From Malania oleifera (Eukaryota; Streptophyta; Magnoliopsida; Santalales; Ximeniaceae), in the NCBI RefSeq assembly GCF_029873635.1, contig NC_080420.1:31425032-31489031 (forward strand): a stretch of 64,000 nt of DNA. The letters are read 5' to 3'. The notes below the pieces were generated by a model. It had not been told where the DNA came from. It did not search any database and worked only from the letters and a program-made list of their open reading frames with translations. Positions 31,334 through 56,815 of this stretch are shown here, piece by piece. Every line of letters starts with the position of its first letter. Positions within the stretch are counted from its first letter, which is position 1. Made by a program: the position numbers and the translations under genes.

Positions 31334-31555
31334 ACTCGAACCAACTCTCTTTCTCTCTCTCTAAGATTCGGGTTATCTGTTACCTGAATCGATGATCCGA
31401 TGTTACCACGTGGATTAGGGGAGGAATCTTTATGGTTATAGCGGATCAGATCTTCATTTTGAGGAATATTGGGTTTTGATCCAAAATTGAGGTAAGGGTC
31501 TGATTTCGTTTTCAATTCGGTAGATTTGTAGTAGGTAGGATTATATTGAAGTTTT
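30963..31555 (+). repeat. G2 5' LTR, first part (U3, TATA, CT tract)
   Basis: Aligns to the 3' LTR from 62043. Contains eight CTCGTCGACGAG-type words (31041-31245), TATAAATA at 31255-31262 and a CT/TA microsatellite at 31301-31332. Cut by copia A at 31556. Confidence 0.88.
31041..31245 (+). promoter_or_regulatory. G2 U3 palindromic motif array
   Basis: Eight spaced variants of CTCGTCGACGAG. One at 31224-31235 is a perfect 12-bp palindrome. The 3' LTR carries the same eight positions (62120-62330) with C/T and G/A differences. The array ends about 10 bases before the TATA box. Confidence 0.6.
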
Positions 31556-32461
31556 TGAAAGCTAAGGTGTTGTCCCAAGAGGGGGATGAATTGAATTTTA
31601 AAGATTTCTTTTAATTTCTATTAAGACTTCTTCTTTTTTAATCAATGTTAGACTTGTTGGTTTAATTTACAAGAACTTAGTTCTTTTAATCCACAATACT
31701 ATTGTTTAACCAAACAAGTAATCAATTAATCAACCAAACCAATCAAGCAAGCACAATATTTAAACCAAACAATCATAAAACATTCAATCAAGATATACAT
31801 TGCAACTTAATAAAAATTCTCAGCTTTTTAACTTTGTGTGCAGCCTTGTTGTTAAAGCAATCCCTTTGATAATGAATTAGCTTTCTTAATAAACACAATA
31901 TTCACACTCTTCCCAAAATTTAGAATTCAAATAAACTCTTAGTTAATTTATCTTCGGAATGTTAACCAAGTAACGTACTCTCGTATGGTTTTCGTAAGGT
32001 ATGGTTTAACCAACGTACTCCCTTTTGCTTTCCATAACCCAAATCAAAATTAGACTTTAAGTTTACTTGATTTCCAAATACGCATAGTATATATGATTAC
32101 CAATTAAACCATCCACGCAATTTAAATGTGCTTAAAATAAAGAGTAAGGGAAAGAGAGAGTGAGACCGGGATTTTTACGAGGTTCGGCTTATACCCAGCC
32201 TACATCCTCGCCTTTGGCAAACCACCAAAGGATTCACTAATACTAGTTCCTTTTTCAGGCGGAATAACACTGTTTACACACTCCTTCAGTAGTCTAAAGC
32301 CCACCTCTCCAAACGATGTACCCTTATTCGGTCATTCCTTCAAATAGGCTAGAGTCCGCCTCTCTAAATGATATCCCTTTGCTTAGCCAATGATCCAAAC
32401 CATCCTTGGAATCGTCAATCAACAAGATACAAATCAAATAGAAGTACAAAGAATTGCTCCT
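31556..32461 (-). repeat. Copia A 3' LTR, outer segment
   Basis: Starts TGAAAGCTAAGG, the minus-strand CA end of the LTR. Colinear with 54700-55600 of the other LTR (CCCAAGAGGGGG block, then GGTTTAATTTACAAGAAC). Interrupted by copia B at 32462. Confidence 0.9.
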
Positions 32462-33433
32462 TGAAATTAAGAATAGCTTCCCAAGAGGGGGGTGAATTGG
32501 GTTCTTTAAAAAATTTTATTCCCTTTTAATACTTACTTGTATTAGTATGACAGCAAGAAAATAAAGTAATCAACTAATAAACACACTACAAGATACTGAT
32601 ATTTAAATAAACAATCCAACCAATTAAAGTAAACAATTTAAACAAGCATGCAAGAGTTTTAGAACTTTTATCAGCTGCCCTGTAGAAGTTTGCAACCTTC
32701 TTTGAATGAAATCGTTGTTTGCACTTCTCTTGATCAAGATTTCCACAGATTAACCAACGTACTCCCGTTTGGGTTTTCGCAAACGGTTAATCAAAAAGTA
32801 CTTTCTAAATATCAAGAGTCTTCCTTTGATTTTAATTTCAAGCCCTGCTATCTGCACTTTAGTACACACAAAAATAGATTATACAGAAAGTAATAAGTAA
32901 AGAAGAAAGAAAGGCACAAAGATTTTATGAGGTTCAACTTCAACACAACCTACGTCCTCACCCTTGGCAAAATACCAAAGGTTTCCACTATAGCAGTTCC
33001 TTTACCGTGCGGGACAACACTGATTACAATCACTGCTTTGTTAAAGCTAGAGCGCACCTTCTCCAAACAATATACCCTCATTTTATCAACAATCCAACAA
33101 CCTGAAATTGTCCAAAATCTACAAGAAAAGCAATAAGAAGATTGTGTACAAAGAACGCTCACACAAAGAGCAAGTTAGTACAATTCAAAACTATGTACTT
33201 CAAAAGATAAATATCAAGAATGAAATACACTTTTGAATCTTAGGAATGGATTTCACCAAACTCCCTTTTCTCCAAATGAGAAATCAGCAATATAACTTCA
33301 GGGATTGATGAACAACAATCTCAAAATCACAGCACTTTCAATTTGCAAGAGATGAACAAGATGAGACTTTGAGAGCAAGAGAGCTTATGAAGAATTTTCA
33401 AAACTTGGTGTGATTTTGCATTAGAAAACCATG

Positions 33434-33441
33434 TATTTATA
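33434..33441 (-). promoter_or_regulatory. TATA box of copia B LTR
   Basis: TATAAATA on the minus strand, identical in the 5' LTR at about 41910-41918. Confidence 0.65.
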
Positions 33442-33564
33442 GGCAATCAGACTTGTTTCCTTGATGTTAAAGTTTCCTTGGAGTGTTTCCCAAGATTTTA
33501 AAAAGTTTGGAGCCCAAGCAACAAATATTTAAAATTTAAAATTTTGAAAATTTTTGCCCGTTAA

Positions 33565-33900
33565 TAGTGTTCAGATGGCTGAACACTTGAGTTCAGTCAT
33601 TTGAAGTTCCTAAGCTAGCTAAAAATAGGAACTAGAAACAGGGTCAGACAACCGAAGATGGGGTTCAGACGACCAAAGAGTCGGGTTTAGACAACCGAGG
33701 TCCAAGTTCAGTCATCTGAACTACTTCTGCCAGTTTCTGTTTCTCACCAGAAAATCTTTAGTCTTCTGAGCTTATTCTTCAGACGTCTGAAGTAATTCTT
33801 CAGTCATTTGAACATGAAGTTCAACCATCTGAACATGAAGTTCAGTCATCTAAGTTGTTACTTCAGGCACCTGATTAGAACTTCAATCATATGAATAGAT
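33565..33900 (-). promoter_or_regulatory. Copia B U3 palindromic motif array
   Basis: At least ten near-palindromes of form TTCAG-N4-CTGAA. Examples are GTTCAGATGGCTGAAC (33569-33584), GTTCAGTCATCTGAAC (33707-33722) and the perfect 16-bp palindrome CTTCAGACGTCTGAAG (33777-33792), which has an ACGT centre as bound by plant bZIP factors. It lies about 125 bases upstream of the TATA box. The same array is in the other LTR (42045-42370). Confidence 0.65.
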
Positions 33901-34347
33901 TGCTTTTTGAATTTTCTATTTCAATAATAAAAAATGGTTTGCTCTCTTTCTTTTATTCTTTATAAAAATTATTCTGAGATTTTTTAAATAGGTCTCAAAG
34001 TCCATATGATCCCCTAAAGAGCTTCAAAATATATTTCAATAGATATTTAAACTTTGAAGTACTCACATTGGATTTCCTAAAACCTTATATGCTAAGCTTG
34101 AGATCATCTACATTCTTTTTGCTTTTGAAGTCCCTTGGATGTTTTCTTGAGCTAGCTTTATCTTCCAATGCATTGATCAGTAATGAGCTATTTTAAGCTT
34201 CTCTTTGGATCACTTGTTAGTTTATCTATCTTGATGGTCCACAATTGATCCTTATTTTCCTGAAACATCAAAACTTAAACATTCCAAGTTAAAATGTCCT
34301 TTGTTTGTTATCACCAAAACTGATTGAAAAGCCTAGTCAAGCCAACA

Positions 34348-34685: not shown

Positions 34686-35841
34686 CATCTTCACTATGAG
34701 GAGAAGAGCTAATATCCATGGGATCACCTCCCTTAGAAGATCTAGCCTGATACTTCTCTATGTGAGTGACGCGCTAATCAAGGGATGTAACTTTTTCTTT
34801 AATATTTTGAAGCCCAGTGCACACTTTAGATGAGAAACTTGAGAAGTCCCTTTGGAATGATAAGAACCATGAAGGTGCATCATGAGAGGACCCTAGATCC
34901 TGTGTGGGAGAGGAGTGAGCTGTTGCTGAGGCTAAAGCTGAGGCTGATGCTAAGGCTGAGGCTGAGGCTGTAGGGGCATGCTGAATCCTACTTGATTTCA
35001 AATACCAGCCCGAGCTACCTTTGTCATACCCTATTTGCTTTAGAGAGGTCTCATTAAAAAGATCATAGTGGGTTCTTTTTATAAAGAATTCAGAGCTATT
35101 TGAGACATGGAGATGAGAGAAAATGAGAGTGAGGACACCTCCATAGGGAAGGACAACTCAGGAGGATTCTAGTTTGGCCCACATCCATCTGATAATTAAG
35201 TTGGCCAAGTCTAGTTTCTTCCCTTTGAGAAGACACCAAAGAACAAAGCACTCAATGTAGGAAAGATGATCAAAAGAGCCTTGCTTGGGTAGGATGTTAG
35301 TTGCAACTATTTTGTGTAAAATTTGGGCTTTTAGACTTAGCTGCTTGTACAAAGGAGGATGCCCAAAATAAATAGGTTCATTTTCCATGATCAATGGGAG
35401 GAAATTTTTAGGGGTAAACCCTTGTTCTATAATCCAGGATTGAGCAAACAGTGGACAGATAAAATCACCTGGAGTAATTTTGAAAATGGGAGACAAAATT
35501 TTGAAATTTAACAAAATTTTATTTCCTTTCACCTCAAAGGAGATAATCCCATTTTCATTAGTCATATTTGCATAAAATATTTTGATAAGATGAGGGAAAA
35601 TGCCTTTTGGTTGTTGGGTAACAAAATCAAACCACCCTATATTTTGGAATAAATGAAGGATATCGAGGAATTCAGTATTTAAGAATGAAACATCCAAAAC
35701 TTTACCAAGAATGGGGTCCATGGTGCCAAGAGACGCACGGTATTGAAGCTTAGCTTGGGGAGCAACAAGCCATTTGTCAAGATTTTGTGCATCTTTCCCA
35801 GATAAAGAACCTCGGTTGGCAGTGTGCTTGATACGAAGCAT
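34686..35841 (-). pseudogene. Copia B accessory gene ORF3
   Basis: Extra gene between pol and the 3' LTR, same strand as pol. Start ATG at 35841 aligns with the start of A's ORF3 (both M-x-R-x-K). Residues 1-227 are open (to 35158). A TGA at 35158 replaces an expected Arg codon (CGA to TGA) inside KLES..LPYGG. Reading continues in frame through LPYGGVL, an Ala/Ser repeat (about 34950-34910), then a heptad-like segment FLSFQRDFSSFSSKVCTGL and on to about 34686. Shared motifs with A: TMDPILGKVLDV / TIDPIFGQVLDV, F-NIGW, PPLYKQL / PPQYKQL, LKGKKLDL, LPYGG. It resembles an uncharacterised plant 'putative transposon protein' domain. Function unknown; no membrane segment supports an envelope role. 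Confidence 0.75.
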
Positions 35842-36021
35842 GTTTGATGAAGATACCTGATTGCAGAAGCCCTAGATTTCATGGAATGATCCTTAGAAGA
35901 GAGGAGCAAGCTTCGGATTGAGTGATTTCTGAGTGAGGATGAGAAGAAATGGAGAGGAAGAGGTTCGGACGAGTTGAGCAACGAACTTCAAAAGACTGAA
36001 ATTAGGGTTTTAAGCTGACAG

Positions 36022-36215
36022 TTATATTTAAATCCCGCGACTTCAGATGACTGAGGATTATCTTCAGTCATCTAAAGATATTTAGGTCTGGAATTTGAAG
36101 AGTCAGTAGCCTCCCAGACATTTGAAGTTCTAGGTTCAGTCATCTGAACTTGTTTGCTATAGTGTCAAGTCGTTAGAAGGTATTAGTTCAGACGACCGAA
36201 GATCAGAAAAATTTT
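36022..36215 (-). promoter_or_regulatory. Internal motif array and TATA-like site before ORF3 (copia B)
   Basis: Between the RNase H end and the ORF3 ATG. TTCAGATGACTGA, CTTCAGTCATCTAAAG, GTTCAGTCATCTGAAC and TTCAGACGACCGAA (36041-36205) repeat the family-specific LTR motif. On the minus strand they are followed by GGGATTTAAATATAA (36036-36022), 181-195 bases upstream of the ATG. Likely an internal promoter; inferred. Confidence 0.5.
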
Positions 36216-36224: not shown

Positions 36225-37454
36225 TTTCTAACATACTTCTCTACTATGAATTAAACCAAGTTCTCTCCTAATGAGTATAAATCTTTCTTCACTTAGGGGT
36301 TTTGTAAAAATTTCTGCCCATTTGTCACTTGTATTAATAAATTCAAGAGTTATATCCTCTTTTTGAACATGATCTCTCAAAAAATGATGCCTTATGTCTA
36401 TGTGTTTGGTTCTTGAGTGTGAAATTGGATTTTTGGATATATTTATAGCACTTGTGTTGTCACACTTTATTGGAATTGTCTTATAATCTAGTTTGAAGTC
36501 TTTTAATTATTATTTCATATACAAAATTTGTGTGCAACAACTTCCGGCTGCTACATACTCAGCTTCGGTGGTTGATAAGGTTATGGAGTTTTGTTTCTTT
36601 GAGAACCATGATACTAAGAATTGTCCTAGGAAGTGACATGTGCCACTTGTACTCTTTCTATCAACCTTACATCCGGCATAATCAGCATCAGAATAGCTTA
36701 TCATGTAAAAATCAATATCCTCTGGATTACCATAAACTTAGATCAAGTGTTCCTAGCAGGTACCTAAGTATCCTCTTAACGACTGTTAGATGTGATTCTT
36801 TAGGTGCTGATTGAAACCTTGCACACATACATACACTAAACATAATATCAGGTCTACTAGTAGTTAAATATAATAAACTCCCAATTATTCCTCTATAGTG
36901 TTTCATGTCTTCATCTCTATCAAGGCTTGTTGATGTACTCATAGGGGCTCCTATGGGTTTGCTTTGTTCCATTTCAAACTTTTTAAGCATATATTTAATG
37001 TATTTAGTTTGATTTATAAATGTCCCATTTTTAACTTGTTTAATTTGTAATCCTAGAAAGTAATTTAACTCCCCCATCATACTCATTTCAAATTCTTTTT
37101 GCATACATATGGCGAAGTCTTTACATAGTTCTTCATTTGTAGCTCCGAATATAATATCATCCACATATATTTGAACAATCAACATTTCTTTGTTTTTGGT
37201 TTTGATAAATAAGGTGCTAGCAAAAATTTACTTAGTCTCTCATACCAAGCTCTAGGAGTTTGTTTCAAACCATACAAGGCTTTTGTTAACTTAAATACAT
37301 GTTTTGGATTTTTTGAATTTTCAAAACCTAGAGGTTGCTTAACATACACTTGTTCATTTATATATCCATTTAAGAATGCACTATTTACATCCATTTGGTA
37401 TAATTTAAAATCATTATGGGCTGCATAAGCTAGAAGCATCCTAATTGCTTCCAT
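36225..37454 (-). pseudogene. pol: Copia B reverse transcriptase and RNase H
   Basis: Copia [23 protein letters not shown] (37370s), [17 protein letters not shown], then a small deletion/shift at about 37190-37210, then the catalytic IYVDDIIFGATN (37150s) intact, FLGLQIKQ, SRPDIMFSV. RNase H follows: YSDADYAGCKVDRKSTSG, STTEAEYVAA, and after an in-frame TAA the end DNTSAI...HIDIRHHFLRDH...FTKPLSEERF (to about 36225). An upstream RT segment (37455-37723) is readable but full of stops. Breaks: the RT shift, a stop at 36727, and TAA at 36510. Confidence 0.9.
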
Positions 37455-37723
37455 TATAGCTACTGGTGCAAAGGTTTCATTGAAATCAATACCTTCTTCT
37501 TGATTATATCCTTATGCTACTAGTCTAGCTTTATTTCTTATAACTACCCCATTTTCATCCTTTTTTATTTCTAAACACCCATTTAGTTCCTATGATTGAT
37601 TTATCTTTAGGTTTAGGTATAAAATTCCCACACTTGACTTCTTTCAAATTGATTTAGTTTCTCCTACATAGTTATAATCCAAGAATCATCTTTTAAGGCT
37701 TCTTCAATGTTCTTGGGTTCATC

Positions 37724-38716
37724 TTAAGAAAAAAAAGAATAATGGTTGCAAATTTTTTTCAATGAGGCTCTAGTGGTTATTCCTTTTGATGTTTCACCAA
37801 GAATTTGTTCTTTTAGGTGACTCTTAGCATATCTCCATTCTTTAGGTAGTTCTAGATTTTCTATGATGTTTTCATTTGAAGTTTTATTATTGCTTTCTTC
37901 TTTTATTTCAATATTATCTTCCTTTTGTGGAATATCTTCTTTTTCATCAATTTTAACTTTATTGTCATAATTATTTGACTCATCAAATGTTATGTGTATT
38001 GATTCAATAATAGTAAGAGTTCTTCTATTATAAACCCTATAGGCTTTGCTATTTGTAGAGTAGCCTAAGAAGATACCTTCATCAGATTTTGCATCAAACT
38101 TTCCTAAATTATCTTTAGTGATAAGGATAAAACATTTGCATCTGAATACATGAAAGTAGGAGATATTAGGTTTTCTACCTTTCCGTAGTTCATACGGTGT
38201 TTTGTCTATACTTGATCTTATAGATACTCTATTTACAATATAACAAGCTATATTCACAGCTTCTGCCCAAAAGTATTTAGGTAGGTTATTTTCGTTTATC
38301 ATTGTTCTTGCCATTTCTTGTAGAGTTCTATTTTTTCTTTCTACTACTCCATTTTGTTGTGGAGTCATAGGTGCTGAAACATTATGATTTGTTCCATATT
38401 CATTACAGAATTTATCAACCTCTTTGTTTCTAAACTCCCTACCTTGATCACTTCTAAAGCTTGTTGCATTATAGCCCTTTTCATTTTGTAATTTCTTGCT
38501 TAAGGTGATTAGCATGTCACAGGCTTCATATTTGTTTGCTAAGAATAATACCCAAGTAATTCTTGAATAGTCATCTACTATTACAAAAGCATACTGTTTA
38601 CCTCTTAGGCTTAAGGGTCTAGTTGGACCAAATAAGTCTAGGTGTAATAGTTCTATGGGTCTTTTAGTAGATATGTACTTTTTCTTTTTGAAACTTGTTT
38701 TAACTTGCTTTCCCTT
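37724..38716 (-). pseudogene. pol: Copia B integrase
   Basis: About 330 codons open in one frame, from KGKQVKTSFKKK to the C-terminus. The D,D,E catalytic triad is visible and intact: HLDLFGP (first Asp), FRSDQGREF (second Asp), PQQNGVVERKNRTL (Glu). Further copia hallmarks are FWAEAVNIACYIVNR, TPYEL, GKFDAKSDEGIFLGYS and YRVYNRRT. A TAA at 38717 (Gln position, CAA to TAA) separates it from the GAG-pre-integrase segment. It would insert the cDNA making 5-bp duplications, as seen around B. Confidence 0.92.
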
Positions 38717-39281
38717 TTAGCATGCATCACACATCTTGCCTTTTATGAATTTGGTATTTGGTAATCCTTTTACAAGATTTTTCTTTGATAATTTGGATAA
38801 TAGGTCCATGCTAGCATGTCCTAGTTTCATATGCCATAGCCAACTTATTTCATTCATTGCTGCCAAACAAGTTACGTTCTGATTTACTAAGTTCTCAAGA
38901 TTTTTACAATAAACATTATTTATCCTATGAGCTATAAACAAGGTTTCATTGTTCTTAGGATTTTGGATAACACATTTTTCTTTCTTAAAGATTATTTCGA
39001 GTCCTTTGTCACTTAATTGGCTAATGTTTAAAAGGTTGTGTTTTAATCCTTCTACTAATAGAACATTGTCAATGGTGAGAGAAGGTACTTTAAAAAATTT
39101 TTCCAATGTCGATAATTTTACCTTTGACATTGTCGCCAAAGGTGACATATCCTCCATCCTTTTGTCTTAGAGAGGTAAACTTGGTCGTATCGCCAGTCAT
39201 GTGACTTGAACACCCGTTGTCCAAGTACCACTTAGTGGGCAATCGAACATTACGTGACCTTTCATCTTGCGCATATAGCAA
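38717..39281 (-). pseudogene. pol: Copia B protease and GAG-pre-integrase
   Basis: Protease motif WYLDNGCSSHMTGD (about 39230-39190): the usual D-S-G is D-N-G. A shift near 39130-39150 leads into the second frame, with GLKHNLLNISQLSDKG and the zinc-binding pre-integrase block LWHMKLGHASMDLLSKL...CDAC. The zinc His/Cys residues look intact. The protease is fused abnormally close to the second gag zinc knuckle (see the gag entry). Confidence 0.88.
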
Positions 39282-39787
39282 GTGGTGTGTTCATGTTTGT
39301 TGTTTGAAGAGGTGCTAGCATAGTGCTTGGCTTCCTCGACGAAGTATCCCATGTATAATTTTTTATTCTCTTTATTAGTTTTACCATTATAACATATCCC
39401 TTCTTTATTTCCATGTAGCCTTTGCTGTCCAATCATCTTTTCAAAATTTTCTTTACCTTTGGTAAAGTTATATATAATCTTCTCCTTATCTTCTACTGAT
39501 TTCTTAAGTTGATTTACTTCTAAATCCTTTTTATTTAAATTATCTTCATGAGTTTTGCCTAACTTTTGAGTTACTTTATTTATTTCCTCTTCTAACTTTT
39601 TAATACAAGAGTCTTTTTCTTTTTCAATGGTTTTGAATGATTCAAGTTGCTTCAATAGTTCTTTATTTTGATCTTTCAAAGTTATATTTCTCTTGGAAAT
39701 TTTTATGAATCTTTTATGCTGAGAAAACAACTCAGCTTGTAATTCCTTGTAGGAAGACATACTATCACACGACTCATCACAAGACAC
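39197..39787 (-). pseudogene. gag: Copia B gag C-terminal coiled coil and knuckle 2
   Basis: In frame with the main gag after a single TAA (39797-39799). A long Lys/Glu coiled coil (KNITLKDQNKELLKQLESF onward) is followed by FTKGKENFEKMIGQQR, then a zinc knuckle that reads CYMRKMKGHVMFDC, so the second Cys is Arg. Directly after C-P the sequence jumps to the protease region. In copia A about 30 more residues, including PKKVWVP, follow the knuckle, so B has a deletion here that also shifts the frame. Confidence 0.82.
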
Positions 39788-39796
39788 ATTGTAAGA

Positions 39797-40897
39797 TTAT
39801 GTTGAAGAGTAGTAGGAATTTATCTTTTCTTCATTCGCCATGAAGCATATATTTTCCATCTTTTGTCCGCTTGATTCGTTTTTTGTCTCGCTGGAGCTTG
39901 AGTCATCCCAAGTGACCTTCATAGCTTCCTTATTTTTCTTTTTGTCTTTCTTGAGTAACGGATAGTCCAGTTTGATATGCCCTGGTTTCTTGCAATGAGA
40001 GCATATTGGAGGTTCATTCTTACTTTTACTTTCTTTCCTATTTGTCTCTCCTTTTTCAGGTTTCTTTTTATTGAACTTTCTAGGAAATCTTTTATTCCTT
40101 CTATAGAACTTACCTAGTCTCTTAGTTATGAATGCTAATTCATCTTGATCTAAGTCACTTGTTTCTCTTTCCTCTTCACTAGAGCCATGGCTAGACGCTT
40201 TTAGTGCAATGGATCTTTTATACTTTGGTTCAGGATTCCTTTCTTTTAAGGCCTTTTCATAGGTAAGAAGTGAACCTATGATTTCATCTAAAGAGGTGGT
40301 CTTAAGGTTTCTACCTTCAGTGATAGTTGTAGCCTTTGGTTCCCATATGGAGGGAAGGCCTCTTAGAATTTTTCTGATCATTTCGTAGGTAGTATAAGTT
40401 TTTCCTAAGGCACTTAAGGAATTTATTATGTGGGTAAATCTGGCGTACATACTTGATATTGTTTCATCAGAATTCATCTTGAATGCTTCATATTCACTTG
40501 TTAACATGTCTATCCTATTGTCTCTAACATCAATTGTACCTTCATATGTTACTTCTAATTTGTCCCAAATTTCCTTTGCCGTTTTGTAGGCCATGACCCT
40601 ATTAAATTCATTAGCATCTAATGCACAGTCTAATGCATTTATAGCGCTTGAATTGATTTGAAGCATTTTATAATCTGAATCGGTCATGTCCTTCTTTTCT
40701 TTTGGAATCTGTTTTCCATCAACTATTTTAGTGGGAATAAGGTTTCCATCCATAACTACTTCTTTTGCTTTCCAATCCATGTGTTGGAGATATATTTGCA
40801 TTCTCTTTTTCCAAAAGGTATAATTATGTCTACAAAATATTGGTGGACGGGTTAAGGATTGGCCTTCACCAAAGGGTGCTACTCCTATATTTGTCAT
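39797..40897 (-). CDS. gag: Copia B gag main ORF
   Basis: 366 codons open from ATG at 40897, about 60 bases after the LTR/PBS. The N-terminal block GVAPFGEGQSLTRPPIFCR and NYTFWKKRMQIYLQHMD is the start of SIRE-type gag (UBN2-like capsid domain). The capsid core continues with AKEIWDKLEVTYEGT, MLTSEYEAFKMNSDETISSM and RILRGLPSIWEPKAT, and ends DELAFITKRLGKFYRRNK. A first zinc knuckle reads CSHCKKPGHIKLDY, with the last Cys changed to Tyr. The protein would pack RNA in cytoplasmic particles. The TAA at the end truncates it before the coiled coil. Confidence 0.85.
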   Translation of the reverse strand: MTNIGVAPFGEGQSLTRPPIFCRHNYTFWKKRMQIYLQHMDWKAKEVVMDGNLIPTKIVDGKQIPKEKKDMTDSDYKMLQINSSAINALDCALDANEFNRVMAYKTAKEIWDKLEVTYEGTIDVRDNRIDMLTSEYEAFKMNSDETISSMYARFTHIINSLSALGKTYTTYEMIRKILRGLPSIWEPKATTITEGRNLKTTSLDEIIGSLLTYEKALKERNPEPKYKRSIALKASSHGSSEEERETSDLDQDELAFITKRLGKFYRRNKRFPRKFNKKKPEKGETNRKESKSKNEPPICSHCKKPGHIKLDYPLLKKDKKKNKEAMKVTWDDSSSSETKNESSGQKMENICFMANEEKINSYYSST

Positions 40898-40940
40898 ATG
40901 ATTTTTTTTATAGTTTCTTGTTAGGAATTTCTATAACTAG

Positions 40941-40954: not shown

Positions 40955-42803
40955 TAAAATTAGGAATAGCTTCCCAAGAGGGGGGTGAATTAGGTTCTTT
41001 AAAAAATTTTATTCCCTTTTTAATACTTACTTTTATTAGTATGACAACAAGAAAATAAAGTAATCAACTAATAACACACTACAAGATATTGATATTTAAA
41101 TAAACAATCCAACCAATTAAAGTAAACAATTTAAACAAACATGCAAGAGTTTTAGAACTTTTATCAGCTGCTCTGTAGAAGCTTGCAACCTTCTTTGAAT
41201 GAAATCTCTTGATCAAGATTTCCGTAGATTAACCAACGTACTCCCTTTTGAGTTTCCGCAAATGGTTAATCAAAACGTACTTTCTAAATATCAAGAGTCT
41301 TCCTTTGATTTTAATTTCAAGCCCTGCTATCTGCACTTTAGTACACACAAAAATAGATTGTACAGAAAGTAATAAGTAAAGAAGAAAGAAAGACACAAAG
41401 TTTTTACGAGGTTCGGCTTCAACACAGCCTAGGTCCTCGCCCTTGGCAAAATGCCAAAGGGTTCCACTATAGCAATTCCTTTATCATGTGGAACAACACT
41501 ATTACAATCACTCCTTTGTTAAGGCTAGAGCTCGCCTTCTCTAAACAACATACCCTCCTTTGGTCAACGATCCAATAATCTGGAATCATTCAAAATCTAC
41601 AAGAAAAATAATAAGAAGATTGTGTACAAAGAACGCTCACACAAAGAGCAAGTTAGTACAATTCAAAACTATGTACTTCAAAAGATAAATATCAAGAATG
41701 AAATACACTTTTGAATCTTAGGAATGGATTTCACCAAACTCCCTTTTCTCCAAATGAGAAATCAGCAATATAACTTCAGGGATTGATGAACAACAATCTC
41801 AAAATCACAGCACTTTCAATTTGCAAGAGATGAACAAGATGAGACTTTGAGAGCAAGAGAGCTTATGAAGAATTTTCAAAACTTGGTGTGCTTTTGCATT
41901 AGAAAACCATGTATTTATAGGCAATCAGACTTGTTTCCTTGATGTTAAAGTTTCCTTGGAGTGTTTCCCAAGATTTAAAAAGTTTGGAGCCCAAGCAACA
42001 AATATTTAAAATTTAAAATTTTGAAAATTTTTGCCCGTTAATAGTGTTCAGATGGCTAAACACTCGAGTTCAGTCATTTGAAGTTCCTAATCTAGCTAAA
42101 AAATATGAATTAGACACGGGGTCATACGATTGAAGATGGGGTTCAGACGACTGAAGAGTCGGGTTCAAACGACCGAGGTCCAAGTTCAGTCATCTAAACT
42201 GCTTCTGCCAGTTTCTGTTTCTCACCAGAAAATCTTCAGTCGTCTGAGCTTATTCTTCAGACATCTAAAGTAATTCTTCAGTCATCTGAACATGAAATTC
42301 AGTCATCTGAAGTTGTTACTTTAGGCATCTGATTAGAACTTCAGTCATCTGATTAGAACTTCAGTCATCTGAACAAATTGCTTTCTAAATTTTATTATTT
42401 CTCTTTCTTTTATTCTTTATAAAACTTATTCCGGGGTTTTTTAAATAGGTCACTAAGTCCATATCATCCCCTAAAGAGCTTCAAAATATATTTCAATAGA
42501 TATTTAAACTTTGAAGTATTCACATTGGATTTCCTAAAACCTTATATGCTAAGCTTGAGATCATCTACATTCTTTTTGCTTTTGAAGTCCCTTGGATGTT
42601 TGCTTGAGCTAGCCTTATCTTCCAATGCTTTGATCAATAATGAGCTATTTTAAGCTTCTCTTTGGATCACTTGTTAGTTTATCTATCTTGATGGTCCATA
42701 GTTGATCCTTGTTTTCCTAAAACATCAAAACTTAAACATTCCAAGTTAAAATGTCCTTTGTTTATTATCACCAAAAATGATTGAAAGCCTAGTCAAGCCA
42801 ACA
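40955..42803 (-). repeat. Copia B 5' LTR
   Basis: 1849 bp, colinear with 32462-34347. A ~255-base block (41641-41895) differs from its partner by about one base, whereas the motif array (42045-42200) differs at roughly 1 in 9 positions by eye. Confidence 0.93.
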
Positions 42804-42808
42804 CTCCT

Positions 42809-42941
42809 CAAAGAGCTGATTAGTATAGATTAAAAACTATATACTTCAATAAAATTCACAATATGAAATTCAGATTGAAGCTCTAGAAGTATTTCACCGT
42901 ATGATTCTTTCAATGAATGAAATAATTAGTAGTTGTAGCAC
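42809..42941 (-). repeat. Copia A 3' LTR, middle segment
   Basis: Resumes A's LTR after B (AAAGAGCTGATTAGTA...), colinear with 55605-55732 in the other LTR. Cut at 42942 by element C. Confidence 0.9.
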
Positions 42942-43167: not shown

Positions 43168-43206
<39 letters not shown>

Positions 43207-45490: not shown

Positions 45491-45493
45491 TTG

Positions 45494-45506
45494 TGGTATC
45501 AGAGCA
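45494..45506 (+). other. Gypsy C primer binding site
   Basis: TGGTATCAGAGCA, three bases after the LTR; initiator-Met type. Confidence 0.88.
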
Positions 45507-45796
45507 ATGTCTAGCCGGAAGTGTGATTAATTTCACATCGTCTGGATATGGAAATGTTAGTGTATTAGCTAAGAGATGATTTATACCAGAGTATAGGAAA
45601 CAGTTAGGATAAGGATGTTAAATGGATGGGTTAGGTTAGGTGTTGAGAAGTAGGTATGGTGTAGGGAAGTATAGGATTTTGTCTTATAGCTTGGAGGCGG
45701 AAATCCTTTTGCGGACTTTTTTGATTTTCTGATTCATTCAAAAGTTTCTGAAAACCACGATAAATCCATTGACGATGATGTTTCTTAACCGTGAGA

Positions 45797-47235: not shown

Positions 47236-48991
47236 TGTTGCCTAATAAGACTTACAATTCTTATTTTGATGATAACAAATCAAATGATATGTTTAGTATG
47301 TTTCGAGTAAAAGATTTTCAGGAAAATAACAAAAGTCAAGTGCATAAGGATGTTTATGGATTATAAAGAGCATAAAGAACAAAGTTATACTATGAAAAGC
47401 TCAAAGGAAAGATTGCAACCACAAAGATGATGGAAAAACAAGACTAAAGACTAAAAGAATTATTTTTTTTTCAAGGATATTCTAAATGCAAGTACTTCAA
47501 AGTTAATCTCAAGTATAAAGTGGTTTGAAGTTCATAGAAATTCAAAAATATTTTTTTTTATATATACTCTAAAGAAAATTTTTTAAATCAATAAAAAGAA
47601 AGGGTTTAAGAAAAGAAAACTTTTTGAAATAATAAAGGGTCAGGCGACTGCCACATTAAGAAAATGGTTTTTCAAAAAGTCAGTAGCTAGACAGGCGACT
47701 GCTTAACCTGCTAGGCGCCTACGTGAACAAGCCAGGCGACTGCCTTGGTTCTAGCAGGCGACTGCCAGCATTATGTGTTGAGAGTTTGCTCTATGACAGG
47801 TGACTGCCACTCAAACGTTGGCATTAAATCTCTCAATCGGAAGATTTTTTAAACCATGTTTTTGGACATATTTATTTCAAAATACCTGGAAATGATTTTT
47901 AGGAATCTTTGGGAGTAATGGATGGCTTCTAAAACATATATAAATAGTTCTAATCTTCAAAAGTTTTAACATTGATGCAATATTCAAAGGTTTTTGAAAT
48001 TAAGTAATCTTTGAAAGTTTTCAGATCTAGCAATCTTCAAAAGTTTTCAGATCCAACAATTTTCAAAGGTTTTTAGATCAAGCAATTTTTATAAAGGTTT
48101 TTATATCAACCGATCTTCAAGTATTCAAAATTCTCAAAGTATCTAAAACTCTCTTAAGCTTAAATTTCTGATCTACTATTGATTTATATTTTGAAGCAAA
48201 GCTTTCAAAAATCAAAATCTTTCATTTTCTTTGAAAAATTATTTGGTAATTCATACTAAGTATTGAGCTTCAAATTTCTTATATTTGAATTACCTTGGAG
48301 TATAAGTGTGCTGATCATTGTACTAATTTACTCTGTTGTGAGAGTTTTCTTTTGTACATAAAATTTCTTTATCATCATTCTCAAATGATTCAGAGCTGTT
48401 GAATCGTTGGACCAAACAAGAGATTGTTGTTTGGAGAGGCGGGCTCTAGCCTGACAGAAGGAGTGGTTGTAAATAGGTGTCGTTCTACTAGGTAACGGAA
48501 CTGATATAGTGGAATCCTTTGGTGTTTTGCCAAAGGCGAGGACGTAGGCTGTGTTGAAGCCAAACCTCGTAAAAATCTTGTGTCTTTCTCTCTGCTTCAC
48601 TTACTATTGTTGTATGATTTAAAAGTGCAAGTTACAAGTTCTTAAGTGAGAAAAAAACAAAGGTACTTGATATTTAGAAAGTACATTTTGATTAATCGTT
48701 TGCGGAAACCCAAAAAGGGAGTACGTTGGTTAATCTGCGGAAATCTTGATCAAGTAAAGTGCATACCAAGAGTTTATAGGGAAATCAACAAAAGCTCTAA
48801 TATTCTTGGTTGAGTGATTGAATTATCTTGATTTCATTAATTGACTTGTGAATTTAAATTTCAGTTTTTTTAAGTGTGGTTATTGTTTATACATCTTGTT
48901 TTCTGGGTAATTAAAATCAAAGGCTTAAAAATTATTAAAATTTAAAAGAATCCAATTCACCCCCCCTCTTGGGAAGCTATTCCTCATTTTA
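47236..48991 (+). mobile_element. Solo LTR D (SIRE-type copia)
   Basis: 1756 bp between GCGGG (47231-47235) and GTGGG (48992-48996). Starts TGTTGCCTAATAAG, ends CCCCCCCTCTTGGGAAGC then TATTCCTCATTTTA. Homologous to the LTRs of A and B in both termini (TTTTGATGATAACAAA start; CACCCCCCTCTTGGGAAGCTATTC end), opposite orientation. TATAAATA at 47939-47946, with a CAGGCGACTGCC array upstream. No internal domain, so it is a recombination product. Confidence 0.9.
47636..47820 (+). promoter_or_regulatory. LTR D motif array
   Basis: About six copies of CAGGCGACTGCC and one TAGGCGCCTA palindrome, some 120 bases upstream of the TATA box. Same position as the B and A arrays but with a different word. Confidence 0.6.
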
Positions 48992-48996
48992 GTGGG

Positions 48997-49594: not shown

Positions 49595-49599
49595 AGCAG

Positions 49600-50682
49600 A
49601 ATATCAGTGAGTCGAATTAGCAATAACTCAGTATGCTTTGTGCAATTTGAGAGCAAGAGAAAGTCTTGAGAATTTGAGAGCAATTGAGAGAGATTTTGAA
49701 TGCTGTGTTGAATTCTTGGTATTGAATCAATGTAACTTGGGTGTATTTATATATGTAAAAGAGTATCTAACTTGTTAGGGTCCAAGATTTAAATAAATTT
49801 GAGCCCTAAAAAATTTTAAAATTTCAAAATATGACCGTTGTGTTTTTCAAAATTACCACGTGACAGTTGACTGTTAGAACTCTGGCAGTCAGCTGTCAGT
49901 GTATTTCACGTTTAAAATGTACAATCAGAAAGGTGGCAATCGCCTTTCAATAGGCAATCAAGCACCTGTCACTGAGCAACTGAATTTTTTAAAATGGCCA
50001 GAAGGGTGACAAACGATTGGCAGAACACACTCAGTCATCTCAATTTACACTGATAGTCGCCTATCAACACTGGACAGTTGACTGTCATGCTTATGTTTTC
50101 TTTCTTAAGGTTCTTTGACATGGCAGTTGACTGTCCATTGCCAGTTAGTCGCCTGTCAACCAGTTGTTTCTTATTTTAAAACATTTTTTATCTCTCTCTT
50201 CTTTGTTTATTTAATCTTGGAATATTAATTTGTTTTATTTTGTAAAATATGCTCCAAGACTTTAAACTAAGGTCTCTAAGTCTCTTTGCCTAATAAGCTT
50301 CAAAATGAAATATCATGCTTGAATCATATTTGAAGTACTTACAAAGCTTTTTCTAGAAACTAATTTGACTCCTCTTTGCTTTGAGTTCACTTTGTCCCTG
50401 ATGTTTGATCTTTCAAACTTCTTTGAGCTTTCATTATGAATCATTTTCTTTGATATAAGGCCTTCCATGTTCCTTGATCCTTGTGAGCTTTCAAGATATG
50501 TCATTTGAGGTCTAAGCTTCATTTGATCTGAATTTTGAACATGAGCTTTTGGAATTTGTCCCTTTTATCATCTGAAATCATTTTTTCCTTCATTAACTGA
50601 AATAACACTACTTTGAAGCAGGTTAGATAGCTTTACTTTGTTATCATCAAAATCAAGAGTCGTAAGCCTATCTAGGCCAACA
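49600..50682 (-). repeat. Copia A 3' LTR, U3 segment
   Basis: Inner part of the LTR. TATAAATA on the minus strand at 49744-49751. Array of GGCAGTTGACTGTC / GGCAGTCGCCTGTC-type words at 49858-50160. Ends ...GGCCAACA at 50682. Confidence 0.88.
49858..50160 (-). promoter_or_regulatory. Copia A U3 motif array
   Basis: Roughly ten words of type GACAGTTGACTGTC, many containing TTGACT, which is a W-box core for WRKY factors. Upstream of the TATA box. The same array in the other LTR is at 55990-56295. Confidence 0.6.
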
Positions 50683-51000: not shown

Positions 51001-52268
51001 TTAATCAAGTATCAGAAGCTGTATCACTATCTGCAGCAACTGTTTTTCCTTTAGATTTCTGTGATGCTTCTTCTTCTTCTTCTTCAGCAGAGCCTTCATC
51101 TGATTTTTCTTGTGAACCTTCATCTGATGATTTTTGTGAGCCATCATCATTTTCGTCACTCTCTTTATTGGAATCAAAATCATTTGGTGCTGAACTAGTG
51201 ACACGTTGCTCTATTTTGTCAAGACGTTTATCCAGTGAAGAGTACTTAGCATCAACATTGGATATTTTGTCTTGAAGAGAAGTAAAACCAGCCCTCATGT
51301 TAGAAATGAAGCTGGAATAATGCTAATAGAAGGGAAGAAACCATGCAGGCATATCATCTTCTTCAGGAGCTAGATTAGGTTCTTCTGGCTCCGGTCGTAT
51401 AGGCCTATTTCCCCTATACATCCATCCCTCAGTGTATTTCTTGTAACCCATCCTTTTTAGAGTAGTGGAGGAAAAGACATTATAATGGGTACATTTCACT
51501 ATCTTGGAGGATGGAGTGAGAACTTGGAAGTGAGCAAAGACTAAAGAAAGTATGCCACCATATGGAAGTCCAATTCTAGGAGATTCTAGCTTCATGGCCA
51601 TCCACTTTAGTATGAGGCTTGTTAAATCCAATTTCTTGCCTTTTAGTATGCACCACATGATAAAAAATTGAAGAAAGAAATAAGATCATAGGATCCTACT
51701 CTAGGAAGAATATTATAAGCAACAATTTTGTGAAGGATTTGAGCTTATAAATTAAGCTGCTTATATTGTGGAGGATTTCCAAAATAAACAGGTTGATCAT
51801 TCATTACAAGAGGCAAAAATTCTTGTGGAGTAAATCCCTACTCCATTTTCCATTTTTTTTTTCAATGGGATCGCACTCAAAATCATCATGTTTTATACGG
51901 AGTATTTTTCTTAGCAATGGTGGAGTAAAGGTAATCTTTTGGCCTAACACTTTGGTAGAAAAACCAACATCTTTCTTTACCAAGTTAGAGTAAAAGAGTT
52001 TGATCTGATCAGGATAATATCCTTTAACTTGGTGTAGGATAAACTTGTCCCATCCTATGTTTTTAAATAGCTCAAGAATCTTAGGGAAATTAGCTTCAAA
52101 GAAAGCAACATCTAGTACCTGACCAAAAATTGGATCAATAGTGGAGATGTGATTTCGGTAAAAAGTTTTTACTTGAGTGGAGATCAACCATTTTTCTATT
52201 TCCTCGTTGCTAACTGGTCGTGAAGAAGATGCTTTGTCTTTGTTCCCTACTGTTTTAGTTCTTGGCAT
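51001..52268 (-). pseudogene. Copia A accessory gene ORF3
   Basis: Homologue of B's ORF3. Open from ATG 52268 to 51804 (154 codons: PVSNEEIEKWLIST, TIDPIFGQVLDVAFF, FKNIGW, IKLFYSNL). A frameshift follows, then PPQYKQL, LKGKKLDLTSLILKWMAM, LPYGGILSLVFAHFQVL and GYKKYTEGWMYRG to 51323. An in-frame stop precedes a clear heptad coiled coil (AGFTSLQDKISNVDAKYSSL, then DKRLDKIEQRV) and a Ser/Asp/Glu-rich tail ending at about 51005. The N-terminal globular domain, coiled coil and polar tail suggest an oligomeric soluble protein. No signal peptide or membrane segment is seen. Function unknown; it survives although all of pol is lost. Confidence 0.75.
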
Positions 52269-52420
52269 GTTGATGAAGCAAAAATCCGAAGAACCCTAGG
52301 TGAAGAGGATTTAGGGTTTGATGGAATGAAGTTGGAAGAGGTTTGGAGAAGAAAAGCTTAGTGGAGAGATGGAGAGAAACTTGTTTAGTGAAGGTTAGAC
52401 GAGTGGACAGGTGTCTGAGA

Positions 52421-52575
52421 CTTTAAAAAGGAGTGTTTTTTCTCGTTAAGTGAGCTTGAATCGCCGCGAGACAGTTGTCTATCTTCAAGGTGACACTCGG
52501 CTGTCGATTGTCTTTCCAAATAGACAGTAGCCTGACAAGCACCTGCCTGGTTTCTTGGCAGTCGTCTGCCCTATA
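52421..52575 (-). promoter_or_regulatory. Internal motif array and TATA-like site before ORF3 (copia A)
   Basis: GAGACAGTTGTCT, GGTGACACTCGGCTGTCG, AGACAGTAGCCTGACAAGC and TTGGCAGTCGTCTGCC (52457-52572) are A-type LTR motifs. CTTTTTAAAG (minus, 52430-52421) follows, 153-162 bases before the ATG. The layout matches the B spacer although the motif is A's own. Confidence 0.5.
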
Positions 52576-52874
52576 GGGAATTTCCTTCTCTCTCTTAGTT
52601 GACTTTACATATATGTAACATTCCCAATTCTCGTCTGTTACCAATTGAAAACTAAGATGCTTATGTAATAAGCTCAATTTGATATTTTCTTAAGTTAAAC
52701 TTTGTAAAAATTATCCTAAGATGTTTGCCAACAATGCCACTATGAATTTGTTATAATAAGCTCTTAAACTCATTTTTAAGTTTTTATATTTCAACTAGTT
52801 CGTTTGTTGATTATGAATTAAGTTACTTTCTCAATTTTTAAAAGGGGAATGATTTAATCCATGGAGTTTTTTAT
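52576..52874 (-). other. Copia A deletion joint region
   Basis: 300 bases between the end of gag and the ORF3 upstream array. No protease, integrase, RT or RNase H sequence is recognised. The pol deletion falls here. Confidence 0.6.
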
Positions 52875-54643
52875 TTATGAACTAGCCTTTCGTCTTGGTA
52901 CCCATACTTTCTTGGGTCTGGTTGGTTTAATGAAGGATGCTTCCTTAATTCTCCATACTTGTTTACTTTTCACACCTTTTCTTTTAAATGGACATTCAAA
53001 CTTTATATGTCCCTTTTTCTTACATTGATAGCATATAGTGTTAGTGTAAGCATTAGAGGATGTGCTAACATAATCTTTGGAGGCTTTCGAAAAATAACCC
53101 ATGTAAAGATTCTTTTTCTTTTTATTTTCAACCCCATTAAATCCAATACCTTCCTTATTTAAGGTCATCCTTTGTGAACCTATCATTTTGTCAAAGTTTT
53201 CCTTTCCTTTTGTGAAGTTATAAATGATCTTTTCTTTGTCTTCAATTTGAATTTTGAGAACATTTATCTCTATATATTTCTTGTCATCGACCTTCTTTTG
53301 TGATTTCTCTAATTCTTGAGACCATTTTCTGATTTTATGCTCTAGTTCATAAATATACGTATCTTTCTCATATTCCATAGAGGATAGGGATTGAAGGTCT
53401 TCTATCATTTTTTTCATTCTTACTTTCTAATTTCTTGATTTTCAAGTCTTTTTCTTTTTCAGCAAGATTTTTAGCTTCTAATTCTTTTATTGTAGCATCA
53501 TACTTATTTTCTATTTCTTTATGTTTTGAATCTTTATCATTTTCAGCAATCTTTATTGATTCTAACTATTTCATCATTCCTTCATTCTTGTTTTTCAGTG
53601 ATGTGTTTTGTTTAATTACTTTGATTAGCATCTTATGTATTTTAAATAAATCATTTTGTAGTTCATTATAAGATGGCATACACTCATCATTGGATTCATT
53701 TGATGAATCACTACAAGAATTATCTAAGGATTTGGATGAGGAGCTTTCCTCATCGTCCCAAGCCATAAAGTAAGTATAAGCAACCTCTTTGTCACTTGAT
53801 TCATATTCTGAACTACTTGTACTATCCCAAGTAGTGGCTTTCATGGCCTTGTTTTTTTCTTCTTAGACTAATGGACATTCTGCTTTTATATGTCCAACTT
53901 TGTTGCAATTATAACACGTAGGAGTTTTATTCTTTGATTTCTTGCTAATATCTTCTTCTTCTGATTCGAAGTCTTGGTTTCTTCTTTTAAATTTGTTCTT
54001 CCTTCTAAGGATTTTTGCAAGTTTCTTAGATATGAAGGCTAGTTCATCTTCATCCATTTCTTCTTCACTACTTGAGTTTTCTTTTAAGGCTTTAAAGGCT
54101 ATTGATTTTTGGGCTTTGGTTTTTCCACTCCTTTCATTCATTGCCATTTCCTAAGGCATTTAGGGAATTTATTATATGAGTGAACCTAGTATACATGCTA
54201 GTTATAGATTCATTTGGGTTCATCTTAAAAGCTTCATATTCGCTTGTAAGCATATCAATTCCTATTATCCCTAACATCTATAGTGCCTTCGTAAATGACT
54301 TCTAGCTTGTCCCATATTTCCTTAACCAATTTGCAAACCATTACTCTATTAAATTCATAGCATCTAAAGTGCAATACAAGGCATTTATGGCACTTGAGTT
54401 TATTTGAAGCATTTTGTAGTCTATATCGGTCAACTCCTTTTTCTCTTTAGGAATTTGTTTTCCATCTACTATCTTAGTAGGAATTAGATGTCCATCCATA
54501 ACTACTTCCCAAGCTTTCTAATCCATGTGTTGGAGATAGATTTGCATTATCTTTTTCCAAAATGTATAGTTATGTCCACAAAAGATTGGAGGTCTAATTG
54601 AGGATTGTCCCTCTCCAAAGGGAGCTACACCTAAATGAGCCAT
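52875..54643 (-). pseudogene. gag: Copia A gag remnant
   Basis: Start ATG at 54643 with GVAPFGEGQSSIRPPIFCG and NYTFWKKIMQIYLQHMD, homologous to B. Many stops and shifts cross the capsid region (54160-54600). The later part is open in pieces: DELAFISKKLAKILRRKNK with an intact knuckle CYNCNKVGHIKAEC (53863-54147 segment); a Ser/Asp-rich stretch (53566-53844); a coiled coil (53200-53417); and a second intact knuckle CYQCKKKGHIKFEC (about 53035-52990), ending PKKVWVPRRKASS. Two CCHC knuckles separated by a coiled coil are shared with B. Confidence 0.85.
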
Positions 54644-54699: not shown

Positions 54700-56815
54700 T
54701 TGAAAACTAAGGTGTAGTCCCAAGAGGGGGGTGAATTGGATTTTGAAGATTTCTTTTAATTCCTATGAAGGCTTCTTCTTTTTTAATCAATGTTAGACTT
54801 GTTGGTTTAATTTACAAGAACTTAGTACTTTTAATCCACAATACTATTGCTTAACCAAACAAGTAATCAATTAATCAACCAAACCAATCAATCAAGCACA
54901 ATATTCATACCAAACAATCATAAAACATTCAATCAAGTTATACGTTGCAACTAAATAAAATTCTCAGCTTTTTAACTTTGTGTGCAACCTTGTTGTTAAA
55001 GCAATCCCTTTGATAATGAATTAGCTTTCTCAATCAATACAATATTCACACTCTTCCCAAAATTTAGAATTCAAATAAACTCTTAGTTAATTTATCTTTG
55101 GGATGTTAACCAAGTAATGTACTCCCGTATGGTTTCCGTAAGGTATGGTTTAACCAACGTATTCCTTTTCAGTTTCCTCAACCCAAATCAAAATTAGACT
55201 TTAAGTTTACTTGATTTACAAATATGTGAAGTATATATGATTACCAATTAAACCATCCACGCAATTTAAATGTGCTGAAAATAAAGAATAAGGGAAAGAG
55301 AGAGTGAGACTAAGATTTTTACGAGGTTCAGTTTATACCCAGCCTATGTCCTCTCTTTTGGCAAACCACCAAATGATTCACTAATACCAGTTCCTTTGTC
55401 AAGTGGAACAACACCATTTACACACTCCTTCAGTAGGCTAAATCCTGCCTCTCCAAACGGCGTACTTTCGTTCGGTCACTCCTTCAAATAGGCTAGAGCC
55501 CGCCTCTCTAAACGATATCCCCTCGCTTAGCCAACGATCCAAACAATCCTTAGAATCTTCAATCTACAAGACACAAATCAAATAGATGTACAAAGAATTG
55601 CTCCTTAAAGAGCTGATTAGTACAGATCAAAAACTATATACTTCAATAAAATTCACAATATGAAATTCGGATTGAAGCTCTAGACGTATTTCACTATATG
55701 ATTCTTTCAATAAATGAAAGAATTAGTAGTTGTAGCATAATATCAGTGAGTAGAATAAGCAAGACCTCAGTATGCTTTGAACAATTTGAGAGCAATTGAG
55801 AGAGATTTTGAATGCTGTATTGAATTCTTGGTATTGAATCAATGTAACTTGGGTGTATTTATAGATGTAGAAGGGTATCTAACTTGTTCCCCAAGTTTAC
55901 TTGGAGTAAGGTCCAAGATTTAAATAAATTTGAGCCCTAAGAAATTTTAAAATTTCCAAATATTACCATTGTGTTTTTCAAAATTACCGTGTGACAGTTG
56001 ACTATTAGAACTCTGGCAGTCAACTACGAATGTATTTCACATTTAAAATGCACAACCAGAAAGGTGGCAGTCACCTGTCAATAGGCAGTCAGGCACCTGT
56101 CATTGAACAACTGAATTTTTTAAAACGGCAAGAAGGGTGACAAATGATTGGCAGAACACACGCAGTCGTCTCAATTTACACTAACACTTGCCTGTCAACA
56201 CTAGATAGTTGACTACATTGCTTCTATCTTCTTTCTTAAGGTTCTTTAACATGGCAGTGGACTGTCCATTGCCAGTCAGTCACCTGTCAACCAGTTGTTT
56301 CTTGCTTTAAAACATTTTTTATCTCTCTCTTCTTTGTTTATTTAATCTTGGAATATTAATTTGTTTTACTTTGAAAAATATGTTCCAAGACTTTAAACTA
56401 AGGTCTCCAAGTCTCTTTGCCTAATGAGCTTCAAAATGAAAAATCATACTTGAATGATATTTGAAGTACTTACAAAGCTTTTTCTAGAAATTGTTTTGAC
56501 ACCTCTTTGCTTTGAGTTTACTTTATCGCTGATGTTTGATCTTTCAAACTTCTTTGAGCTTTCATTATGGATCCTTTTTTTTTTTTTTATAAGGCCTTCC
56601 ATGTTCATTGATCCTTGTGAGCTTTCAAGATATGTCATTTGAGGTCTAAGCTTCATTTGATCTGAATTTTGACATGAGCTTTCGAAATTTGTCCCTTTTA
56701 TCATCAGAAATCCTTTTTGCCTTCATTAAATGACATAACAATGCTTTGAAGCAGGTTAGATAGCCTTACTTTGTTATCATCAAAATCAAGAATCATAAAC
56801 CTAGCTAGGCCAGCA
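54700..56815 (-). repeat. Copia A 5' LTR, uninterrupted
   Basis: 2116 bp, TGCTGGCCTAGC (56815) to TTAGTTTTCA (54700) on the minus strand. The split 3' LTR adds up to almost the same length once B and C are removed. Confidence 0.93.

Follow-up and report, generated by a model that had tools for sequence, protein, structure and literature searches.

Why does a spacer inside a copia retrotransposon carry the palindromic word of that element's own LTRs? The question is raised by element A, a Sirevirus-like copia element on the minus strand of a 64,000-nt stretch of Malania oleifera DNA, hereafter the window (GCF_029873635.1, NC_080420.1:31,425,032-31,489,031, + strand; assembly 1.49 Gb). The spacer of A comprises the 308 bases before ORF3. 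The LTR word of A is GRCAGnnnnCTGYC, and that of a second copia element, B, is TTCAGnnnnCTGAA. The initial annotation had proposed that in A and in B the spacer had switched motif with its own LTR, and that the two arrays evolve in concert, either by conversion or by shared selection to match one binding protein.

Self-BLAST and junctions resolve the right half of the window into nested LTR elements. A gypsy-like element, D (+ strand), holds A, the 3' LTR of A is broken into three pieces by B and by another insertion, C, and C itself contains a third related LTR, E (Table 1). In B, integrase comes before reverse transcriptase, which is the copia order. Between 50682 and 54700, A retains ORF3, part of gag and both box arrays, with no recognisable pol; a short stretch probably corresponds to the 3' end of pol in related copies, and the remainder of pol was not found in A. 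The element is probably non-autonomous and derived by deletion. Of 30 A-family loci, 19 have a match to the 3' part of pol no more than 1.5 kb from the spacer, A not among them; the query was the diverged pol of B, and absence in the other 10 A-family loci is not proof of loss.

The rest of the window contains further repeats. Insertion C (42941-49594) has a pair of 2-kb direct repeats, about 94% alike, the second of which is interrupted by LTR E, and no coding domain was recognised in it. A tandem array of about four copies of a 114-base unit lies at 27480-28057, and long GA-repeat tracts at 4663-5280, 10375-10456 and 20426-20531. Old gypsy-like remains, 66-69% similar to the interior of D, occupy 2778-9443 and 58780-61595, and such remains include RVP_2 at 58466 and Integrase_H2C2 at 8174. 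Rfam and tRNA scans of the window gave no match. Viral contigs gave none either, and 26 pattern matches yielded no confirmed relative.

Table 1. Features of elements A, B and E, in window positions.
Feature	Position	Strand	Basis and remarks
A 5' LTR	54700..56815	-	self-BLAST and PBS-like junction at 54700
A 5' LTR box array (GRCAGnnnnCTGYC)	55995..56286	-	upstream of CTATAAATAC near 55862
A 3' LTR, piece 1	31555..32465	-	91% to 54700-55609; split off by insertion of B
A 3' LTR, piece 2	42804..42940	-	93% to 55601-55737; between B and element C
A 3' LTR, piece 3	49595..50682	-	87% to 55734-56815; box array 49864-50155
A gag fragment with zinc knuckle	52878..53426	-	20.3 bits, cut-off 20.8
A stretch corresponding to pol 3' end of related copies	52600..52640	-	inferred
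A spacer box array (main finding)	52408..52570	-	word scan and shuffle tests
A TATA-like CTTTTTAAAG	52421..52430	-	function inferred
A pyrimidine-rich (70%) leader with telobox AAACCCTA (52312-52319)	52269..52406	-	sequence scan
A ORF3, 5' part, open frame	51807..52268	-	weak PF20167 match, 25.7 bits (cut-off 45)
B 5' LTR	40955..42803	-	box array 42049-42371; TSD AGGAG
B gag and pol	36730..40930	-	order gag, gag_pre-integrs, rve, RVT_2
B spacer box array	35989..36198	-	word identical to B LTR word
B ORF3, 5' part	35161..35841	-	PF20167, E 1.9e-13
B 3' LTR	32462..34347	-	box array 33572-33873 (TTCAGnnnnCTGAA)
E, third related LTR	47237..48991	+	box array 47641-47806 (GNCAGGCGACTGCC)

Each box has the layout arm-CAG-NNNN-CTG-arm. 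Four words had been read in the A spacer, and all four are present on the + strand (GACAGTTGTCT at 52470-52480, GACACTCGGCTGTC at 52492-52505, GACAGTAGCCTGAC at 52523-52536 and GGCAGTCGTCTGCC at 52557-52570), each occurring once within the window. The TATA-like word CTTTTTAAAG, said to lie 153-162 bases before the ATG, is indeed found there on the minus strand, the A of the ATG being position 52268. The A spacer holds three exact cores, where 0.09 are expected (0 of 2000 shuffles), and seven cores within one mismatch, where 1.51 are expected (1 of 2000 shuffles). In the 64 kb, 28 of 29 exact CAGNNNNCTG cores lie in the LTRs of A, B or E or in the spacers of A or B, and one lies elsewhere. Exact cores exceeded dinucleotide shuffles in the five LTR pieces and in the tested spacers, at most 6 of 2000 shuffles giving as many, and no such excess was seen in gag, pol, ORF3 with linkers, C, the gypsy element or the left 30 kb. 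For the E array, the one-mismatch count alone was not significant (207 of 2000).

It is the outer arm letters that distinguish A from B, in LTR and spacer alike. Arms were typed on boxes within one mismatch, ties being left out. The A spacer has seven A-type and no B-type boxes, the B spacer one and seven (Fisher p=0.0014), and the corresponding counts are 17 and 6 for the A LTRs and 0 and 24 for the B LTRs (p=4e-8), both p values being rough because boxes within one array are not independent. From exact cores only, the contrast between spacers is 3:0 versus 0:2 (p=0.10). Within the window, then, the A spacer carries the A-type word and not the B-type word, and the switch of each spacer with its own LTR is borne out by the arm counts.

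All but two exact cores are centred on CG, TG or CA, TG and CA being deamination products of CG, and the words as written look like decayed forms of arm-CAG-N-CG-N-CTG-arm. Where core and centre letters vary across 30 A-family spacers, the changes are mostly C>T or G>A, the pattern that decaying methylated CG and CHG sites should leave. Within boxes and outside them, C>T decay affects CG and CHG more strongly than CHH. In the same 30 spacers, with non-box sites taken from the first 240 columns, context-matched change at box versus non-box sites was 0.161 versus 0.247 for CG, 0.157 versus 0.233 for CHG and 0.031 versus 0.120 for CHH, which speaks for constraint on the boxes. Without context matching, mean pairwise agreement was 0.813 for boxes and for inter-box DNA, and 0.791 for cores, which speaks against it.

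Because the window holds two families only, a survey of SIRE-type elements was run in the genome to which it belongs. Copies were chosen by ORF3 domain or by spacer, and 57 were examined: the 2 of the window, 20 of the A family, 6 of B and 29 PF20167 loci. The A-spacer search gave at least 40 further matches, one a short piece, of which only the best candidates were scored, and LTR pieces were taken for 20 of the 29 other A-family spacers. A search for the PF20167 family yielded 8,173 candidates at first look; 150 were scored and 30 fetched, 20 with an extra LTR piece, the others being scored on the locus alone. For B, 6 of the 39 other full-length spacer matches were sampled, as two small pieces each. 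A search with the G spacer (see below) listed 53 matches. One locus, L076, was left out before the 57 were assembled, its upstream piece being a 99% copy of its own LTR. In L076, 99% LTR-part copies lie 2.43 kb apart (element orientation), one at ~678-1359 and the other at 3108-3540 with its continuation in L098 1-249; the locus appears to be a young LTR-ORF3-LTR derivative that lacks a normal spacer.

In the 29 fetched A-family spacers, exact-core boxes had A arms 73 times and B arms once. The A LTR was the best match to the downstream piece for 18 of 20 spacers; the first 1.3 kb of the L038 piece match the B LTR, which is probably nested there, and the L040 piece has no LTR match. Five of the six sampled B copies have B words in both pieces, and the LTR piece of one has none. 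Most PF20167 spacers carry the E-type word GGCAGGCGACTGCC, and new spacer words were found in these loci: F (AAACCGTCGACGGTTT-like), G (TTCGTCGACGAA) and H (ACTCGTCGACGAGT-like). The spacer words recur in the copies' own LTR pieces, in L054 and L055 (F), L063 (G), L061 and L068 (H) and most E copies. As the F, G and H words had been read in spacers before the LTR pieces were obtained, the match in the LTR is a forward test; L055 and L068 were typed afterwards, with words from other copies. H-type palindrome arrays also stand before a TATA-like word in LTR-like DNA at L094 1-300 and L061 ~2945-3180, two pieces that are partly alike (66%) and match no other LTR family compared.

Overall, spacer and downstream 3' LTR have the same box type in 40 of the 47 copies typable at both (A 17, E 12, B 6, F 2, H 2, G 1). 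Label shuffles, which ignore kinship, gave a mean of 12.9 matches and a maximum of 24 in 10000. Ten of the 57 copies were untypable in at least one place, and L065 has no box in spacer or LTR. Among the mismatches, L005, L010 and L012 combine an E spacer with an A LTR; all belong to the A family, with arms one purine step from E. The sampled piece of L009 holds a B LTR, the LTR score of L053 is 1, at noise level, L066 reads as a PPT and LTR start followed by other DNA, and L067 has B-like boxes in a piece that matched none of the compared LTRs. A score threshold of 4 (the 95th percentile for host windows of 1900 bases) leaves 42 copies, of which 37 match, or 40 if A and E are counted as one type; at a threshold of 6, 35 of 38 match. 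L009, L061, L066 and L067 were omitted from clade means of this threshold analysis only.

At the subfamily level, a match between LTR and spacer words is supported by the sequences in six of six types, or five if H is set aside. Type H is weakly supported, since no PPT was seen downstream of ORF3 in L061 and the L068 spacer scores 3 (99% of the null, 2). Two copies stand behind F, one behind G and one or two behind H, the G and H words overlap, and the 17 E copies are near relatives, not independent. In the ORF3 DNA tree, which has low support at several inner nodes, A copies form one clade and E copies another; F falls inside a clade of eight that includes the box-less L051, L052 and L077, and H is split, L061 standing beside the L063 of G and L068 beside L067. 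Co-switching of LTR and spacer is thus supported beyond the two cases of the window, all six types being found among the 40 matches. To present A as an independent second case was nevertheless an overstatement: A and B are related Sireviruses, and words shared within each element have been in print since 2010 (PMC2829016, Table 3).

What changed in these switches, and what stayed? Downstream of the arrays, LTR parts align across types (A-B 74-75%, E-B 73%, A-E 80%, L055-L068 74%, L055-L063 70%), so that the re-lettering of the arrays took place within homologous LTRs. Where the boxes lie, the LTRs of A and B can no longer be aligned. Box spacing is about 21 bp, two helical turns, irrespective of the letters: among 88 adjacent gaps of at most 70 bp (18 arrays, six types), 42 measure 20-22 bp, as compared to 7.5 for random placement (maximum 19 in 2000). 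Other recurrent gaps are 24-25, 41-42 and 45-46 bp. Spacers alone have 13 of 32 gaps at 20-22 bp. The best period of the window arrays is 10.5 bp, and the two window spacers alone are weakly phased, with 3 of 11 gaps at 20-22 bp (equalled by 58 of 1000 random placements) and a phase score attained by 28 of 1000. Such a fixed geometry would be expected if dimeric binders of a single structural class had altered their specificity.

The surroundings of the boxes recall a promoter. LTR arrays precede a TATA box, TATAAATA, by about 130 bases, the word found about 130 bases past the last box being CTATAAATAC in A and B and ATATATAAATAG in E. Both window spacers have boxes, then a TATA-like word, then a pyrimidine-rich leader with a telobox, and such a telobox and leader are present in many copies. 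A telobox lies between boxes and ORF3 in 21 of 29 PF20167 spacers versus 2 of 174 control windows, that is in all 17 E spacers and in 4 of the 12 others (p=0.00014 versus control). TATA-like words occur in 23 of the 29 versus 66 of the 174 controls, again in 17 of 17 E spacers, and in 6 of the 12 others, with no excess over control (p=0.54). In L054, L055, L061, L063 and L068, neither was found in the scanned 250 bases. As judged from sequence, the promoter signal appears clear in E, present in A and B, and patchy elsewhere. The spacer data fit, short of proof, the internal-promoter idea put forward in PMC2829016.

We consider it probable that the spacer serves ORF3 as an internal promoter, and that both arrays are alike because one dimeric, sequence-specific DNA-binding protein must bind both. 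The array of 14-bp palindromes in the spacer would match that of the element's own U3 because the same dimeric factor reads LTR boxes and spacer boxes. Since boxes about 21 bp apart lie on one helix face, the protein probably binds cooperatively. When the specificity of this reader shifts in a lineage, selection would swap the arm letters in both arrays, and during this re-lettering the remaining LTR and the geometry would stay. Binding, dimerisation, spacer-driven transcription, and selection rather than copying as the keeper of the match are what we infer from these patterns.

The arrays could also be alike through copying, units of the U3 array having been moved into the spacer or back, by template switching in reverse transcription or by conversion. 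In favour of this, the spacer and LTR of B have in common a 38-base unit of two boxes (score 37, against at most 29 in shuffles) as well as a purine-rich leader (3/300 with boxes masked, 2/500 with boxes neutral). In L063 (type G), spacer and LTR are 70-73% alike over about 81 bases, with 21/25 spacing, and an ACAGGG-like linker, judged by eye, is present in both arrays. If whole tracts were copied, however, linkers should match, and they mostly do not, so that tract conversion is not supported. With boxes masked, a test that is weak for 7-bp linkers, own LTR/spacer pairs were at shuffle level in 12 of 13 cases (30-244 of 300), L056 exceeding it (3 of 300). With boxes made neutral, values in 14 comparisons were 2/500 for B against its own 5' LTR, 18/500 for L056, 19/500 for A, and 44-331/500 for the remaining 11. 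Outside the boxes there is little or no likeness, the marginal cases being B (leader), L056 and A, and block conversion of LTR/spacer tracts was rejected. An old transfer whose linkers have since decayed may have taken place, but it would still require something keeping the boxes. We regard copying as a minor possibility; old or occasional copying may seed the arrays, and something then keeps the boxes alike. Of the two routes proposed at the outset for evolution in concert, conversion is therefore not supported, and shared selection would fit better.

Selection by the host or the element could act on the palindromes in another way, as RNA hairpins feeding small RNAs or as CG/CHG methylation targets. 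In maize, palindromes in Sirevirus LTRs are hotspots of small-RNA mapping, according to the available text of PMC5311732, the CG and CHG bias of C>T decay points in the same direction, and the fold of the B spacer is far better than those of shuffled sequences (z -4.9). Yet folding of the A spacer is ordinary (z -1.7, 12 of 200 shuffles being as good), ideal boxes are loop-free dyads, which would suit DNA dimers over RNA hairpins, and both the 21-bp phasing and the letter match between arrays would be left unexplained. This makes silencing an improbable cause of the match. Plain common descent with slow drift, each subfamily inheriting two arrays with no ongoing link between them, agrees with the separate ORF3 clades of types A, E and F, but the box regions of the A and B LTRs are unalignable and still each typed subfamily has its word in both places; we hold this to be very improbable. 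A protein that reads both arrays is our preferred explanation.

Palindromes of LTRs are also, by its title, reportedly the subject of an article by Bousios in Genome Research in 2016. In the available text of PMC2829016 (Bousios 2010), palindromic repeats are described in 13 Sireviruses, with copies upstream of ENV in 9 of 13, and Table 3 gives one consensus word per element, common to the LTR and the pre-ENV region. Boxes are placed there in the upper LTR before the TATA box, their CpG content is noted, an internal promoter is envisaged for ENV, and the role of LTR palindromes is deferred to future promoter tests; the available part of PMC3414828 describes the function of the 'envelope-like' gene of Sireviruses as unproven. 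The Malania elements resemble Sireviruses in having palindromic repeats in the LTR and before the gene at the ENV position, a PPT with GGGGGAGA at the 3' LTR, also in the A and B junctions, and a TATA box after the LTR array in A, B and E. A PPT-like site was found downstream of ORF3 in 27 of 30 PF20167 loci, often at several places, and is absent from L051, L061 and L077. The CGG-CCG signature, which the elements seen in PMC2829016 have except Tnd-1, is absent from A, B and E (CAG..CTG); F boxes have CCG..CGG, and G and H boxes CGTCGACG. The rule that the spacer word equals the LTR word is already implicit in what is available of PMC2829016. By difference, several words co-occur in Malania in one host genome, switching in step, and neither the 21-bp spacing nor clade-by-clade matching is mentioned in that text. 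Searches of open-licence literature on Sireviruses brought up no report of within-genome co-switching or of a box-reading protein. What is added here is co-switching in one genome, a fixed 21-bp geometry, and motif/ORF3 pairs with which to test ORF3 as the reader.

Could ORF3 itself be the reader? The ORF3 proteins of A and B are 38% identical. Of six open frames of at least 300 aa, four (L051, L063, L071, L072) have an acidic stretch of 12-18 D/E in 30, and L070 and L080 are without it (5 and 6 D/E in 30). A basic start (L051, L063 and L071, for example) and a coiled coil in L071 were judged by eye, and a simple basic-cluster pattern had no match in the six frames. As to the signal peptide and transmembrane helix of a retroviral-type envelope protein, the best 19-residue hydropathy is 1.1-1.6 in five frames and 2.07 at the C end of L070, the frame of which starts inside the domain; N-terminal hydropathy is low except in L051. 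By its acidic stretch, basic start and coiled coil, ORF3 may resemble a nuclear protein more closely than an envelope protein. An AlphaFold model from a three-row alignment was unusable (pLDDT 39), a search of PDB gave no relative (best E 0.87), and of the protein searches one matched a Malania oleifera protein and two further ones had no match.

To our knowledge, no protein is known for Sirevirus boxes. The nearest working model is VANC/VANDAL, an anti-silencing system in Arabidopsis, taken as an analogy; VANDAL is a DNA transposon, whereas the Malania elements are LTR copia elements. Grande, a gypsy element, provides another partial parallel. VANDAL elements carry short tandem motifs in non-coding parts, with subfamily letters (C- and T-type YAGTATTAY; PMC5735166), and coevolution with the cognate protein has been proposed (PMC5735166, PMC10398659); the available text of these two papers does not call the motif a palindrome. 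Grande gene23 lies as an additional ORF between pol and the 3' LTR, has a promoter of its own (PMC7264820) and, from the title of Gomez-Orte 2013, a nuclear product; unlike ORF3 it is antisense, and PF20167 is not mentioned in the available part of PMC7264820.

By analogy with VANC/VANDAL, ORF3 might be its own reader: a nuclear protein with basic start, coiled coil and acidic tail, which would bind as a dimer to the palindrome of its own subfamily and activate or de-silence its own LTR and internal promoter, protein and both arrays coevolving. The features of ORF3 motivate this idea and do not prove it, and we consider it rather unlikely as it stands. If it were true, the subfamilies of one genome would be cognate motif/protein pairs, and pol-less copies that keep ORF3 and both arrays, such as A, would be parts of that circuit. 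Several re-lettered versions of one layout in a single genome make the role of the palindromes and the role of ORF3 testable. Each subfamily offers a motif, a spacer, an LTR and an ORF3, with which ORF3 can be separated from a host factor as the reader.
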